The translations under genes were made by a program, and so were the position numbers. Positions 25,562-53,667 of a stretch of DNA of 64,000 bases are shown here, piece by piece; position 1 is the stretch's first letter; every line of letters begins with the position of its first letter. This stretch comes from Chitiniphilus eburneus. GTDB taxonomy: Bacteria > Pseudomonadota > Gammaproteobacteria > Burkholderiales > Chitinibacteraceae. The stretch is from NCBI RefSeq assembly GCF_005048205.1, contig NZ_SUMF01000001.1, positions 372,001-436,000 on the forward strand, given 5' to 3'. The notes beneath the pieces were generated by a model. The model worked only from the letters and a program-made list of their open reading frames with translations. It searched no databases and was not told the DNA's origin.

Positions 25562-25596
25562 AACGCCCCAGCCTGATTCCCAGGGCAATCGACCTA

Positions 25597-25862
25597 GGGC
25601 GAGTCAGCCAATGCATCGCGACAGCGTTCGGCGCAGTGCGGGATGCGGCGCAAGGCGCTGGACGCGTCGCGGTATGAATACCGTAAGCGGCCGGCGACAC
25701 CGAGCCGCGCCCGAAATGCGCCGAACCCGTAGGGCTAGGCCGAGAAAACACCATTCACTGTGTTGCACTCCTTGCCAATAACCGGGTATTGGCTGCGTCG
25801 GGCGCCTGGTGCCTGGTGCTTTGTCGGCCCAGCGCTGCCGCGATGCATTGGCTGACTCGCCC
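25597..25862 (-). mobile_element. 266-bp structured repeat element, copy A (MITE-like)
   Basis: The outer arms, extended to CTAGGGC, match at 32 of 33 positions (25594-25626 with 25833-25865). The 266-bp body from GGGC to GCCC is flanked by TA on both sides, as in TA-targeting elements. Inside are two further palindromes centred near 25676 (CGGTATGAATACCG) and 25784 (CCAATAACCGGGTATTGG). It is about 80% alike, by eye, to the element at 50715-50980 and of exactly equal length, in opposite orientation. There is no credible coding frame. It fills the gap between a small lipoprotein gene and a convergent pseudouridine synthase gene. Confidence 0.8.
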
Positions 25863-26590
25863 TAGAAGCGCTCGTACTGGCCCAGGTAGCGCCAGCCCCC
25901 CTCCGGCAGATCCCCCAGCGCCAGCCGGCCGACGCGGATACGCTTGTAGCTCGCCACGCCCAGGCCCACGCTGGCGCATAGCGCGGGAATCAATCCCGGC
26001 CGATATTCGCGCAGCAGCACCCGCAGTTGCCGATCGCTCTGCCGCGTCACCTTCAGCGGCCGGATCGTCTGCTCGCCGACTTCCCGCGTATGCCCCAGCA
26101 GGCTGGCTGTGTCGGCGCCTAGGTCTGCGGTCACCCACACCAGGAATTCCTGCTCGAAATCCTGCGCCTGGGCCAGGCGCTGTGCCAACCGCCCATCCTG
26201 TGTCAGCACCAGCAGGCCGCTGGCGTTGGGGTCCAGCGGCACCTCCACCTGCTGCCGTTGCACATGCTTTTTCAGGAAGCGGATATCGGAGCCACCCGCG
26301 TGCAATTGCTCCGGTCGCAATAGCGCGGACAAGCCCAGCATGTCGTCGGCATTCCAGCCGCGAACCCCCGCCGGCTTGTTCAGCAGCAGCGTGACGCGCT
26401 CGGGTGCGGCACTGGCCGTGGCGGGCAGGACAGCGATGTGCTGGGTCGGCGTTACGCGGCTGCCCAGCAGATCGACAGTGCGGCCATCGACCTGGACCCG
26501 CCCCTGCTCGATCAGTTCGTCGGCCTCGCGGCGCGAGCACAGACCCAGCTCCACCATACGCTTGGACAATCTCAGGGTTTCTTGCGTCAT
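25862..26590 (-). CDS. Divergent S4-domain pseudouridine synthase (RsuA/RluB/RluF family)
   Basis: A 242-residue protein with an N-terminal S4 RNA-binding domain ([20 protein letters not shown]) and a pseudouridine synthase domain. The catalytic segment reads [17 protein letters not shown]: the aspartate is kept, but the usual GRLD start is VPLD. The C-terminal basic motif, normally like [10 protein letters not shown], is REYRPGLIPAL here. It is clearly a paralogue of the RluF-like gene at 59187, with both motifs altered. Target base and activity are uncertain. Its TAG stop overlaps the end of the 266-bp element. Confidence 0.8.
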   Translation of the reverse strand: MTQETLRLSKRMVELGLCSRREADELIEQGRVQVDGRTVDLLGSRVTPTQHIAVLPATASAAPERVTLLLNKPAGVRGWNADDMLGLSALLRPEQLHAGGSDIRFLKKHVQRQQVEVPLDPNASGLLVLTQDGRLAQRLAQAQDFEQEFLVWVTADLGADTASLLGHTREVGEQTIRPLKVTRQSDRQLRVLLREYRPGLIPALCASVGLGVASYKRIRVGRLALGDLPEGGWRYLGQYERF

Positions 26591-46780: not shown

Positions 46781-47523
46781 TGTTCCCTCCGGTACCACCG
46801 CCTGCGTACCGCGTCGCTTCGAGGTGGCCCCTCGCGCGCGGCCGGTCGGCCTGTGGCGAATACTTGTAGTCGTGCTTTTTTCAATACATTAAACGCTTTA
46901 TGACAAGCGGGCATAGCACCTGCCCATGCGTCTCGCGCATGACCGGCATGCACAGCACGCCTCAGGCCGCGCCGCTGTTGGCGTTGCCCGTGCTCCGGCG
47001 GTGTGGCGCCAATAACCGTCACGACAATCTGAGTCAAACCGAAGGCCACGCTGCATCGCACCATCGGCCCGCCCCATGCCACCGACCGTCCGGCGCCGTG
47101 ATGTAGCTCTCCCCCACGGACTACACCACCGGTTTTGCCTTGCTTGTCCCAGGCAATCGGCACTGCGGCGATGAACGGCACATCCGCAGTCTGGCGACGC
47201 CATCCTCCCGGCACATGCCTGCGGCGCATCCCCGACATGCGCCATCAAGGCTGTGAGCTGCCGGAACACTGCGTTTAAATGAATCCGCTCCCGCCAATCT
47301 GGGCACTTCCATCTTCTTGTCCGCCCCGCTGCATGCGGGGCTTTTTTTTTTGCCGCGCCATGCGGGGGACGCATGACAGGCATGCGCCGCCAACGGTTCC
47401 GCCCGGCCAAAGGTCGCCCGTAGATTGAAAAACAAGCCGCCACGACGCGACCGGCACCCCGGCGCAGCGGCTCGCCAGGCCGGCCGCGCCGCGACCGGGG
47501 GCACCCAACAGGAGAGAGGAACG
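46781..47523. other. Long intergenic region between LysR gene and sugar ABC operon
   Basis: About 740 bp with no supported gene. Near 46875-46915 lies an AT-rich patch (TTTTTTCAATACATTAAACG) likely to hold the LysR promoter. A strong terminator stands at 47322-47352 on plus. Between them I see only short random frames. The stretch may carry a small RNA or a long leader. Confidence 0.45.
47322..47352 (+). terminator. Orphan terminator 170 bp before the sugar-binding gene
   Basis: GCCCCGC-tgcat-GCGGGGC followed by ten T. No plus-strand gene lies in the 540 bp upstream, so it must end a non-coding transcript or attenuate a leader of the ABC operon. Confidence 0.85.
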
Positions 47524-48780
47524 ATGAAGCACACCCTGATCGCCGCAATGGTCGGCGCGCTGCTCGCCAGCGGCGGCGCCCATGCCGAAAAGGTCAAGAT
47601 CGAGTTCTGGACCATGAGCATGAAGCCCCGCTTCGATGCTTACTTCGAAGACGTGGTCAAGCGCTACGAAGCCCAGAACCCCGATGTGGACGTGGTGTGG
47701 ACCGATTTACCCTGGGACGTGATCCGTTCCAAGTTCACCGCCGCGGTCGCAGCCGGCCAGCCGCCGGCCCTGGCCAACATGAACGTGCAATGGGCCTACG
47801 ACTACGCGGTATCCGGCGCGATCCAGCCGATCGATGCGCTGCTGGGCAAGGATCGCGGCATGTACACCGCCGGCGCACTGGCCGATGTGACCTGGAAGGG
47901 CAAGACCTACGCCTTTCCCTGGTACAACTCGGCCGACATCATGGCGGTGAACGTCACCATCTTCAAAAAGGCCGGCCTGGACCCCAACAAGCCGATCCGC
48001 AACCTGTCCGAGCAACTGAAGATGGCGACGCAGATCCGGCAAAAGGCGGGCGTCGCCGGCTTGGCGCCCCGCCTGGGCCGGGTGGAAAGCGTTTTCCTCG
48101 GCGAGGGCCTGCCGGTGCTGGAGAACGGCAAAGCGGTGTTCAACTCGCCCAAGCATGTGGCGTTGCTGCGCGAATTCGCCACCGCCTACAAGGCCGGCGC
48201 GCTGCTCAAGGACAACCTGTTCGCCGAGGACAACTTCCAGGTATCGATCGCCGCCTATAACGGCGGCCGCCTGGGCATCCTGGAAACCACGCCCACCGCG
48301 CTGACCCGCGTGCGCGACGACGCCAAGGACATCTATGCCGTGACGCTGGCGCAGCCGGTGCCGCCCGGCGCCACCGGCGTGGTCAAGGGCGGCTGGCTGA
48401 TGGACTTCGTCGTGCCCAAGGGCGTCGATGCAAAGTTGCTGCCGCAGGTGGGCACGTTCGCCAAGTTCCTGACCAACGACGCCAACCAGTTGGCATTCTC
48501 CAAGGCCACTGGCGGCACCTACCCGTCGGTGAAACAGGCCGCGCTCGATCCGTTCTTCCAGGATGTACCGGCCAATGCGGGGGCCGTGGAAAACGCCCGG
48601 GCCATCGGCGCGCGCAACCTGGAGAACGTGCGCACGCTGGCGATCCTGGGGATCGACGACCCGGCCCCCTTGCTGCGCCGCCTGCGCGAGGAAACCGAAG
48701 CCGCCGTCACTGGCCGCAAGGATCCCAAGGCAGCGATGGACGCCGCCGTGACGTTCTGGAATGCGCAACTGAAGAAGTGA
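47524..48780 (+). CDS. Sugar ABC transporter substrate-binding protein (copy 1)
   Basis: Periplasmic solute-binding protein of family 1 (MalE/UgpB type), 418 residues. Signal peptide about 1-21 (ending GGAHA), mature start EKVKIEFWTMSMKPRF. Sugar-stacking aromatics are likely in NVQWAYDYA, FPWYNSAD and VVKGGWLMDF. The start has AGGAGAGAGG upstream. It heads the operon with two permeases and an ATPase. It is a close paralogue of the protein at 52399. The substrate is unknown; oligosaccharides from chitin are only a contextual guess. Confidence 0.9.
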   Translation: MKHTLIAAMVGALLASGGAHAEKVKIEFWTMSMKPRFDAYFEDVVKRYEAQNPDVDVVWTDLPWDVIRSKFTAAVAAGQPPALANMNVQWAYDYAVSGAIQPIDALLGKDRGMYTAGALADVTWKGKTYAFPWYNSADIMAVNVTIFKKAGLDPNKPIRNLSEQLKMATQIRQKAGVAGLAPRLGRVESVFLGEGLPVLENGKAVFNSPKHVALLREFATAYKAGALLKDNLFAEDNFQVSIAAYNGGRLGILETTPTALTRVRDDAKDIYAVTLAQPVPPGATGVVKGGWLMDFVVPKGVDAKLLPQVGTFAKFLTNDANQLAFSKATGGTYPSVKQAALDPFFQDVPANAGAVENARAIGARNLENVRTLAILGIDDPAPLLRRLREETEAAVTGRKDPKAAMDAAVTFWNAQLKK

Positions 48781-49859: not shown

Positions 49860-50681
49860 ATGTTGAAACGCATCCTGCTGAACTGGACGCCGCGCTATAC
49901 CTTGCTGGCGCTGGTCGGCCTGTTCACCACCTTTCCCTTTCTCTGGACACTGTCCACCGCGCTGGGCGACGGCGGCAACATCTACGCCTTTCCGCCGCAG
50001 ATGCTGCCCACCGAACCCACGCTGGCCCACGTGGAAGAAGCGCGCCGCGTGATCCCGCTGGATCGCTTTTTCTGGAATTCGGTGTGGATTTCCGCCTGGA
50101 CCGTGTTCGGCACGCTGCTGATCTCCAGCCTGGCCGGTTACGCGCTGGCGGTGATGAAGTTCCGTGGCAGCAAGTGGGTGTTCCTCGCGGTACTGACCAC
50201 GCTGATCCTGCCGTCGGAACTCAACTTCATCGTCAACTTCATCACCGTGACGCAGTTGAAGCTGACCAACACGCATACCGGCGTGGTGCTGCCGCTGCTC
50301 GCCAACGCCTTTGGCATCTTCCTGCTCAAGCAGGCGTTCGAGGAAATCCCCGCCGAGATCCTGGATGCCGCGCGCATCGACGGCGCGGGCGAGTGGCAGT
50401 TGTTCCTGCGCGTGGCGTTGCCATTGGCGATGCCGTCGCTGGCCGCGCTGGGCATCTTCACCCTGGTCGCCACCTGGAATGCCTACATCTGGCCGGCGGT
50501 GGTACTGCAAACACCCGACGAGTACCCGCTGGCGGTGGGCGTGCTCTACCTGTCCGGCACTTTCGCCGCCAAGACGCGCGTCATCGCCGCCGGCACGGTA
50601 CTGACCATCCTGCCGGTGCTGATCCTGTTCCTGCTGGCGCAGCGCTACTTCATGCGCGGCCTGGACGGCGCTGTGAAGTAG
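49860..50681 (+). CDS. Sugar ABC transporter permease (MalG/UgpE type)
   Basis: Second permease, 273 residues, with six membrane segments and the EAA loop LDAARIDGAGEWQLFLRVAL. The ATG at 49860 follows CTGGAGG nine bases upstream. The stop codon TAG at 50679-50681 coincides with the left edge of a 32-bp palindrome (TA plus the first G), which suggests the element inserted at the stop codon. Confidence 0.92.
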   Translation: MLKRILLNWTPRYTLLALVGLFTTFPFLWTLSTALGDGGNIYAFPPQMLPTEPTLAHVEEARRVIPLDRFFWNSVWISAWTVFGTLLISSLAGYALAVMKFRGSKWVFLAVLTTLILPSELNFIVNFITVTQLKLTNTHTGVVLPLLANAFGIFLLKQAFEEIPAEILDAARIDGAGEWQLFLRVALPLAMPSLAALGIFTLVATWNAYIWPAVVLQTPDEYPLAVGVLYLSGTFAAKTRVIAAGTVLTILPVLILFLLAQRYFMRGLDGAVK

Positions 50682-50712
50682 GGCGTGTCGTCACCTGTAT
50701 CACGACAAGCCC
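50681..50712. mobile_element. 32-bp mini-palindrome flanked by TA, beside copy B
   Basis: Runs from GGGCGTGTCGTCAC to the complementary-like GTGATACGACAAGCCC-type end (arms 14 bp with two mismatches) and is flanked by TA at 50679-50680 and 50713-50714. Its arms match the ends of the 266-bp elements. It looks like two element ends joined with the interior lost. Confidence 0.55.
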
Positions 50713-50714
50713 TA

Positions 50715-50980
50715 GGGCATGTCATCAAATGTTTCGCGACAGCGCTGGGCCGAAAAAACACCAGCCACCAGGCGCATGACGCAGGCAATAACCGGTTATT
50801 GGCAAGGAGTGCAACGCAGTGGATGGTGTTTTTTCGGCCCAGCCCTGCGGGTTTGGGGCATTTCGGGCGCCGCGCGACGTCGCAGGCCGCTTGCGGTATC
50901 CATACCGCAGCGCGCCCAGCGCCTGGCACGGCATCCCGAACTGCACCGAACGCTGTCGTGAAACATCTGATGACACGCCC
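50715..50980 (+). mobile_element. 266-bp structured repeat element, copy B (MITE-like)
   Basis: Terminal inverted repeats of about 31 bp (from GGGCATGTCATCA to the complement of GGGCGTGTCATCA; 3 mismatches). Left flank is TA, right flank TG. Inside, 50744-50843 is a concentric palindrome: a perfect 19-bp arm GCTGGGCCGAAAAAACACC and, at its centre, the perfect 16-bp CAATAACCGGTTATTG. A second palindrome is centred at 50900 (TGCGGTATCCATACCGCA). The whole is homologous to copy A, of the same length, in opposite orientation. It separates the second permease gene from the ATPase gene. Confidence 0.82.
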
Positions 50981-51017
50981 TGACCACCCGCGAACAAAAA
51001 ACCCAAGGAGCCAGAAC

Positions 51018-52112
<1,095 letters not shown>

Positions 52113-52350: not shown

Positions 52351-52398
52351 GCTCTCGCCCAGCCCGCCCCTGCCCAGTTCGCCTATAAGGAGTTGTCC

Positions 52399-53667
52399 AT
52401 GAAACCGGCCCTCGCGGTGCTGCTCACCGGCGCCTTGTGCGTCAGCACGCTCGCCCACGCGGAAAAAATCCGTATCGAATTCTGGACGATGAGCCTCAAG
52501 CCCAAGTTCGACAGCTATTTCCAGAAGATCGAAAAAGACTACGAGCGCGCTAACCCCAACGTCGATATCGTCTGGGTGGACCACCCATGGGACAAGATCA
52601 TGCCGCGCCTGCACGGGGCCATTGCCGCCGCACAGCCGCCCGCGCTGGCCAACCTGAACGTGGAATGGGCCTACGACCTGGCGCAACGCCGCTCCATCGT
52701 CCCGGTGGACAAGCTGATGGGCGCCGACCGCGCCATGTATATGCCCGGCGCGCTGGCCGACGTGACCTGGGAAGGCAAGACCTACGCCTTCCCCTGGTAC
52801 AACGGCGTGAGCGTGCTGGCCGTCAATGCCGATCTGTTCCGCCGCGCGGGGCTCGATCCCGACAAACCGATCCGCACGCTGGACGAGCAGCTGGCCGCCG
52901 CCAAGCAGATTGCCGAAAAGACCGGTGTGGCCGGGCTGGCGCCCGAACTGGGCCTGCCGGTACGTATCTTCATGGCCGAAGGCCTGCCGCTGGTGGAAAA
53001 GAACCGCGCCGTGTTCAATTCGCCCGCCCACGTGGCGCTGCTGGAAAAATACGTGCTGGCCTACAAGAGCAAGGCGCTGATCCACGACAAGGCCGCACTG
53101 TTCGGCGAAGACAACTTCCAGGCCGCCATCGCCGCCTACAACGCTGGCAAGCTGGCCATGCTGGAAACCGCGCCCACCGGCCTGGCCCGTGTGCGCGACG
53201 ACGGCAAGGCCGTCTATGCCAAGACCCGCGTGCTGCCGGCGCCGCAAGGCCCCACCGGCGTGGTCAAGGGTGGCTGGCTGTTCGACTTCGTGGTGCCCAA
53301 GGGCGTCGATCCGAAGGCGCTGCCGGAAGTGGCCAAGTTCGCCAAGTACCTGACCAACGACGCCAACCAGTTGGCGTTCTCCAAGGCCACCGGTGGCACC
53401 TATCCGTCCGCGACCAAGGCTGCGTTCGATCCCTACTTCCAGCAACTGCCCGCCAACGCCGGTGCGGTGGAAAACGCACGCGCCATCGGCGCGCGTAACC
53501 TGGCCAACGTGCGGACGCTGACGCTGCTGGGTATCGACGACACCGAGCCGCTGTACCGCAAGCTGCGCGAGGAAGTGGAGTCGGCCGTCACCGGCCGCAA
53601 GACCGCCAAGGCGGCGTTGGATGCCGCCGTCGTGTTCTGGAACGACAAGCTGTCCAAAGCACGCTAG
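52399..53667 (+). CDS. Sugar ABC transporter substrate-binding protein (copy 2)
   Basis: Paralogue of the protein at 47524 over its full length, 422 residues. Signal peptide ends STLAHA, mature start EKIRIEFWTMSLKPKF. The shared blocks include VVKGGWLFDFVVPKGVD and TNDANQLAFSKATGGTYPS. Differences cluster in the ligand-facing parts (FPWYNGVSVL against FPWYNSADIM). AAGGAG is six bases before the ATG. It is separated from the ATPase gene by about 285 bp, so it may have its own promoter. One transporter may use two receptors. Confidence 0.9.
   Translation: MKPALAVLLTGALCVSTLAHAEKIRIEFWTMSLKPKFDSYFQKIEKDYERANPNVDIVWVDHPWDKIMPRLHGAIAAAQPPALANLNVEWAYDLAQRRSIVPVDKLMGADRAMYMPGALADVTWEGKTYAFPWYNGVSVLAVNADLFRRAGLDPDKPIRTLDEQLAAAKQIAEKTGVAGLAPELGLPVRIFMAEGLPLVEKNRAVFNSPAHVALLEKYVLAYKSKALIHDKAALFGEDNFQAAIAAYNAGKLAMLETAPTGLARVRDDGKAVYAKTRVLPAPQGPTGVVKGGWLFDFVVPKGVDPKALPEVAKFAKYLTNDANQLAFSKATGGTYPSATKAAFDPYFQQLPANAGAVENARAIGARNLANVRTLTLLGIDDTEPLYRKLREEVESAVTGRKTAKAALDAAVVFWNDKLSKAR

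Follow-up and report, generated by a model that had tools for sequence, protein, structure and literature searches.

The analysed window is a stretch of 64,000 nucleotides of the Chitiniphilus eburneus genome (genome G000 of our set; 4.34 Mb, 94 contigs), in which we examined two copies of a 266-bp element, called here copy A and copy B. Copy A adjoins a gene whose product was read from its translation as pseudouridine-synthase-like. Copy B separates the permease and ATPase genes of an apparent single operon, and these two genes are flanked by two similar genes for sugar-type ABC substrate-binding proteins (47425-48780 and 52393-53667). The features are as follows, a slash marking an element boundary:

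25595-25596, no strand: TA, left target-site copy of copy A (CTA/GGGC); single TA at the orthologous site of genome G002
25597-25862, plus strand: copy A, 266-bp element, P1 first on this strand
25597-25625, plus strand: copy A outer stem, left arm, of which the outermost ~17 bp are the lineage-variable part
25626-25726, plus strand: copy A hairpin P1, tip CGGTATGAATACCG at 25670-25683
25726-25734, plus strand: copy A mini hairpin CCC-GTA-GGG
25734-25833, plus strand: copy A hairpin P2, inverted homologue of P1, tip CAATAACCGGGTATTG at 25776-25791
25834-25862, plus strand: copy A outer stem, right arm
25863-25864, no strand: TA, right target-site copy of copy A (GCCC/TAG)
25862-26590, minus strand: pseudouridine-synthase-like gene; copy A is inserted at its TAG stop codon, which TA and the terminal G of the element rebuild; same last codon in the orthologue of G002
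50681-50712, no strand: 32-bp end-to-end derivative, adjoining copy B with one TA common to both and lying within the TAG stop of the ABC permease gene upstream; the permease genes of G001 and G002 end GTGAAGTAG and GTGAAGTAA
50715-50980, minus strand: copy B, 266-bp element
50715-50743, minus strand: copy B outer stem, P2-side arm
50744-50843, minus strand: copy B hairpin P2, perfect 19-bp arms (R2 match, E=1.6e-23)
50843-50851, minus strand: copy B mini hairpin CCC-GCA-GGG
50851-50951, minus strand: copy B hairpin P1
50952-50980, minus strand: copy B outer stem, P1-side arm

Direct comparison of the two copies showed that each is exactly 266 bp long and that they lie in opposite orientation, as stated in the initial annotation of this DNA; they are 84% identical without gaps. 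That annotation had also described terminal inverted repeats of about 31 bp with one common centre, two inner palindromes with centres of their own and an interior devoid of genes. In agreement with this description, the outer arms measured ~29-31 bp, P1 and P2, the inner hairpins, each have their own centre, and the element contains chance open reading frames only and no conserved gene. The perfect 19-bp arms reported for the inner palindrome of copy B, which is P2, were found again (GCTGGGCCGAAAAAACACC and GGTGTTTTTTCGGCCCAGC, with the concentric CAATAACCGGTTATTG). Copy B is flanked by TA on its left and by a decayed TG on its right. The folding check that had been proposed gave, for the element as DNA, -99.3 kcal/mol compared to -62.1 kcal/mol (sd 3.8) for dinucleotide shuffles, a value well below the controls (z = -9.85). 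The predicted three-way junction held as far as the foldable outer stem and the two hairpins are concerned, but not in its number of arms. A tiny hairpin, CCC-NNN-GGG, lies between P1 and P2 besides the two main hairpins, and the extruded junction would thus have four arms.

A DNA search detected at least 40 copies in the window genome, and at least 46 near-full-length copies (250-275 bp) were counted once further loci had been collected, so that the further copies anticipated by the initial annotation are clearly present. The end sequences of the family occur 137 times in this genome, against once for a reversed-pattern control. Element copies coincide with assembly breaks, several contigs ending inside a copy. 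The exact core pattern matched one named genome only, that of C. shinanonensis DSM 23277.

In the window genome the elements end TA/GGGC...GCCC/TA within YTAR sites; 35 of the 46 near-full-length copies have an intact TA on both sides, and the YTAR context was found at 26 of 27 testable insertion sites. At orthologous loci of the same-genus genomes G002 and G001 the element is absent and a single TA is present, for copy A and for others; the empty G002 site of copy A reads CCTAAAACC, compared to CCTA-element-TAGAAGC when occupied. These empty sites indicate that the elements are mobile, and recent activity is suggested by G024, which holds 12 near-identical copies. As the element begins with G, TA and this G together yield TAG again after insertion into a stop codon. 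In junction-spanning comparisons within gene ends, the codon that received the insertion proved to be the native last codon of the gene at copy A, at loci L003 and L020, and at the 32-bp neighbour of copy B. A direct preference for stop codons was rejected, as open reading frames stop at 17 of 27 insertion sites and just as often at other YTAR sites of the same flanks (17 of 33, p=0.44); insertions at stop codons thus merely reflect where YTAR occurs. At position 1005 of locus L202 (G009), an autonomous IS5-family insertion sequence (IS) also lies exactly at a TAG stop, a 301-aa open reading frame ending at the first base of the IS.

About 15 short forms with both ends were recovered from the window genome (32, 50, 57, 57, 74, 91, 98, 102, 158, 166, 166, 168 and 231 bp, and others). 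Nearly all differ from one another, several were apparently joined at microhomologies, and full-length copies outnumber them. Several element copies lie next to members of a further repeat family (CGCGAACCAACGCATCCC...TTTGAATGTCGATTCGCCC and variants), as seen in the flanks at L010 and L012.

Of 60 other genomes that were searched, 20 contained the elements, almost all of these genomes belonging to the same family. The ends are genus-specific: GGGCGTGTCRTC in genus g1, GGGCCTGTTAACACTTATT in g6, GGGTCTGTTGACGTTTCA in g7, GGTTCTGTTGACGTTRG in g9 and GGGCCTGTCGTCATGAG in g8. ISs were located by transposase search and their ends were then compared with those of the elements. In g7, the element end GGGTCTGTTGACGTTTCA is the 18-bp terminal repeat of TA-flanked ISs of 857-858 bp in the sister genomes G034 (12 copies) and G064; these 18 bp are identical, whereas the interiors are unrelated. 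In g6, element and IS ends differ at 1 of the first 19 bases. An IS remnant of G016 has the end GGGCCTGTTAACACTAATT, and ISs of G009, with GGTGGTGTCGTCAC ends, have GTGTCGTCAC in common, in register, with the window elements. The proteins of the matching ISs belong to the IS5 family (NF033580, PF13340/PF01609) and their transposases to transpos_IS5_3 (NCBIfam, E=5e-78; NF033580, 262 bits at L204). Their open reading frames are split in the G016 and G009 ISs and single in the G034 IS, two frameshifted ORFs being a trait of the IS427 group. It should be noted that in G034 the twelve ISs (L204, L208, L210, L221) are apparently identical at 857 bp, and that no 266-bp element was detected in that genome.

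The relation to IS427/IS5-type elements that had been suggested from the first reading is borne out by these ISs, which carry transpos_IS5_3, measure ~840-860 bp and duplicate TA in YTAR. The other parentage suggested at that time, an IS630-type, mariner-like MITE with a TA target, would account for the TA duplication and for the preference for CTAG. Against it, no DDE_3 transposase was found in the window genome, and the matching ends belong to IS5_3 elements and not to any IS630-type one; an IS630 parent was therefore rejected, and we regard this origin as highly improbable. The parent transposase with the same ends, which the initial annotation proposed to look for, was found in relatives but not in the window genome, where profile searches (including PF01609, PF13340 and NF033580) revealed no IS5_3, DUF4096, DDE_Tnp_1 or DDE_3 transposase. 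With these three profiles negative, and with most unpaired ends inspected and found to be truncated copies, a parent IS inside this genome was rejected; mobilisation in trans by a resident enzyme is accordingly deduced from the related genomes. No IS5-type transposase of the matching kind was found in G002 or G026, and the only complete IS of such a type found in G024 has ends unlike those of its elements. The elements have the properties of bacterial MITEs, namely a length of 266 bp (below 500 bp), no transposase gene, terminal inverted repeats, a target duplication and ends shared with an IS. The many copies, the empty sites and the identity of ends in addition uphold the MITE family first proposed, and mobility through an IS5-type transposase acting in trans appears well supported by the sequences compared.

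The elements of a second subfamily end in GARCCTGTTCAYGATCT-like sequences and are flanked by TNA duplications of 3 bp, matching TNA flanks being present at 14 elements. This subfamily resembles in this respect the IS1031 group of the IS5 family, which produces a 3-bp TNA duplication. No autonomous parent of the TNA-flanked subfamily was seen among the fetched loci.

MITEs are usually defined by the ends that they have in common with a parent, and their interiors drift. Here the pattern is reversed. Comparison of TA-type elements from different genera gave 55% identity for the outer 17 bp and 72% for the core. Of 124 elements of either type, 109 measure 264-267 bp, and compensatory change was found in 70 of 92 predicted pairs, both arms changing together. 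A tree of the cores separates the TA-type elements from the TNA-type ones at 99% SH-aLRT with 4 label changes, some of the labels being doubtful. Because of this separation, the idea that elements freely exchange ends of one type for the other was rejected, and the switch appears rare and old; the split must also be old because each group spans several genera. For the two end subtypes within the window genome, 10 changes were needed on a poorly resolved tree.

The search was extended with covariance models of one hairpin that exclude the element ends, using a P2 model for the order (read here as Burkholderiales sensu GTDB) and a broader model for the class (read as Gammaproteobacteria). The P2 model matched in 69 of 300 genomes of the order, from 38 of 134 genera (E <= 1e-5), and the broader model in 82 of 369 genomes of the class, from 65 of 272 genera (E <= 1e-6). 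In the window, the broader model retrieved the two elements only, each also weakly on the other strand, the next-best match having E = 0.45. At 18 of 19 class-level loci, 16-20 of 20 outer-arm bases match at the expected distance, compared to 11-13 in shuffled controls. Most of 43 aligned class-wide elements measure 263-269 bp. Their outer arms are 39% identical between elements and 91% Watson-Crick paired within elements, and several copies from one genome carry the same or similar ends. The homology of P1 and P2, which looked weak in Chitinibacteraceae, is clear class-wide: P1 is the inverted homologue of P2, with z > 2 in 33 of 43 elements for the inverted comparison and in 4 for the direct one (mean z 4.4 and 0.7, respectively). 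Across many families of a single class, interior, fold and the 266-bp length have been more durable than the ends, and this class-wide core with replaced ends is the main surprise beyond the initial annotation.

A structured RNA, either a 3' UTR stabiliser or a small RNA, could be selected for its fold and use mobility as a mere means of spread; this would agree with the very strong conserved fold and its covariation, and with copies often lying directly at gene ends, where they would be transcribed. Within genomes, P1 variants also show a G-U excess (43 G-U and 19 A-C), which could reflect single-strand folding of that strand. By contrast, G-U and A-C variants are balanced in the outer stem (14:15 within genomes, 38:35 class-wide), the pattern expected of selection on DNA, and P2 has no G-U excess within genomes (16:20). 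Class-wide, P1 and P2 each contain more G-U, which the predicted structure itself favours. Element orientation relative to genes is mixed, a covariance-model search found no Rfam family match at the gathering threshold, and no promoter-like site was found in 50640-51040. On these grounds we consider selection for an RNA unlikely.

Palindromes are prone to template switching and arm-to-arm conversion, and the paired changes observed here may have been created by template-switch repair. Such processes could maintain paired changes and fold in a neutral palindromic MITE whose core has no function. The concerted changes of the ends, for which the outer 17 bp show 32 variant types with compensation and 31 without, and the microhomology deletions of the short derivatives are in line with such neutrality. 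It leaves unexplained, however, the sequence-specific motifs (AAGGCG..., GCGTTG..., CTCCTTG and CGCCTTG) and the length of 263-269 bp across families, and we hold it to be a possible but rather doubtful account.

The explanation that we consider probable is that the elements are MITEs mobilised in trans by an IS427-like transposase of the IS5 family, that their core acts in cis and that their ends are replaced; they are best read as an ancient MITE superfamily whose core would function in its own spread. A transposase encoded elsewhere would cut at the ~18-bp terminal repeats, and the element would be inserted at TA inside YTAR. The ~230-bp core, composed of two inverted homologous hairpins and the mini hairpin at a fixed total length, would aid spread or maintenance in cis, for instance through extrusion as a four-way junction or binding of a host factor. 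When the available transposase changes, lineages would take up new end sequences, both ends together, either by gradual co-evolution with the transposase or by capture of new ends. The cis role is suggested by the conserved sequence and constant length of the core and by the poor success of shortened derivatives; full-length copies outnumbering diverse short forms is what would be expected if the core aids spread. More tentatively, the core and not the ends may be the heritable unit. It would then be an ancient noncoding mobile cassette, a fixed-length inverted dimer of one hairpin, persisting across Gammaproteobacteria by repeatedly acquiring the ends of available IS5-superfamily transposases and recognised by a conserved host or transposition factor.

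Regarding known systems, IS711 is placed in the IS427 group of the IS5 family, with IS6501 of Brucella and ISs of Paracoccus; these ISs measure ~840-865 bp, with a 2-bp TA duplication at YTAR and 13-21 bp terminal repeats. TA duplication at YTAR was described for IS711 of Brucella (PMC3163539), and 2-bp duplications with a typical length of ~850 bp for IS427-group ISs (PMC3281130). The Chitinibacteraceae ISs found here have ends in common with the elements, whereas the elements encode nothing and have nothing in common with an IS beyond the terminal ~18 bp; they are therefore not simple internal deletions of an IS. MITEPsy1 of Pseudomonas syringae, an IS5-related element of 100 bp that targets CTAG/YTAA and transposes in vivo (PMC3189936), is likewise gene-less with IS5-type ends and a similar target, but it makes a 4-bp duplication, occurs in few species, and no conserved core combined with variable ends has been reported for it. 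Correia elements, QMITE, Chunjie and further bacterial MITEs (reviewed in PMC10969869) are alike in size class, high copy number, hairpin formation and size derivatives arising by deletion; those families have been described one genus or species at a time, on the basis of their ends, whereas the present family is defined by its core across a class. BIMEs, which are paired REPs, likewise join a hairpin unit to its inverted copy within a single element. REPs, however, are 20-40 nt long with GTAG/CGTC tags (PMC3733652) and have neither TA duplication nor long terminal repeats, and membership of REP/BIME was rejected because the units found here measure ~100 nt and lie within a 266-bp element flanked by TA. 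No description matching the element family was found in the literature searched, so that, within Rfam and this literature, we agree with the initial annotation that it matches no named family. The family is common and unannotated in the collections searched, and at gene ends it may affect transcripts. Whether bacterial MITEs have functional cores, and whether the transposase changes within a MITE lineage, are questions open to test.

Copy B used as query gave no match in plasmids and phages, nor did one distant-type query in phages and one query in E. coli genomes. Among five distant-type queries of plasmids, two had no match and three gave partial matches only, in a few plasmids. Partial core relatives (H4, H5 and H6) lie in unannotated stretches of Azotobacter, Citrobacter and Pseudomonas aeruginosa plasmids.
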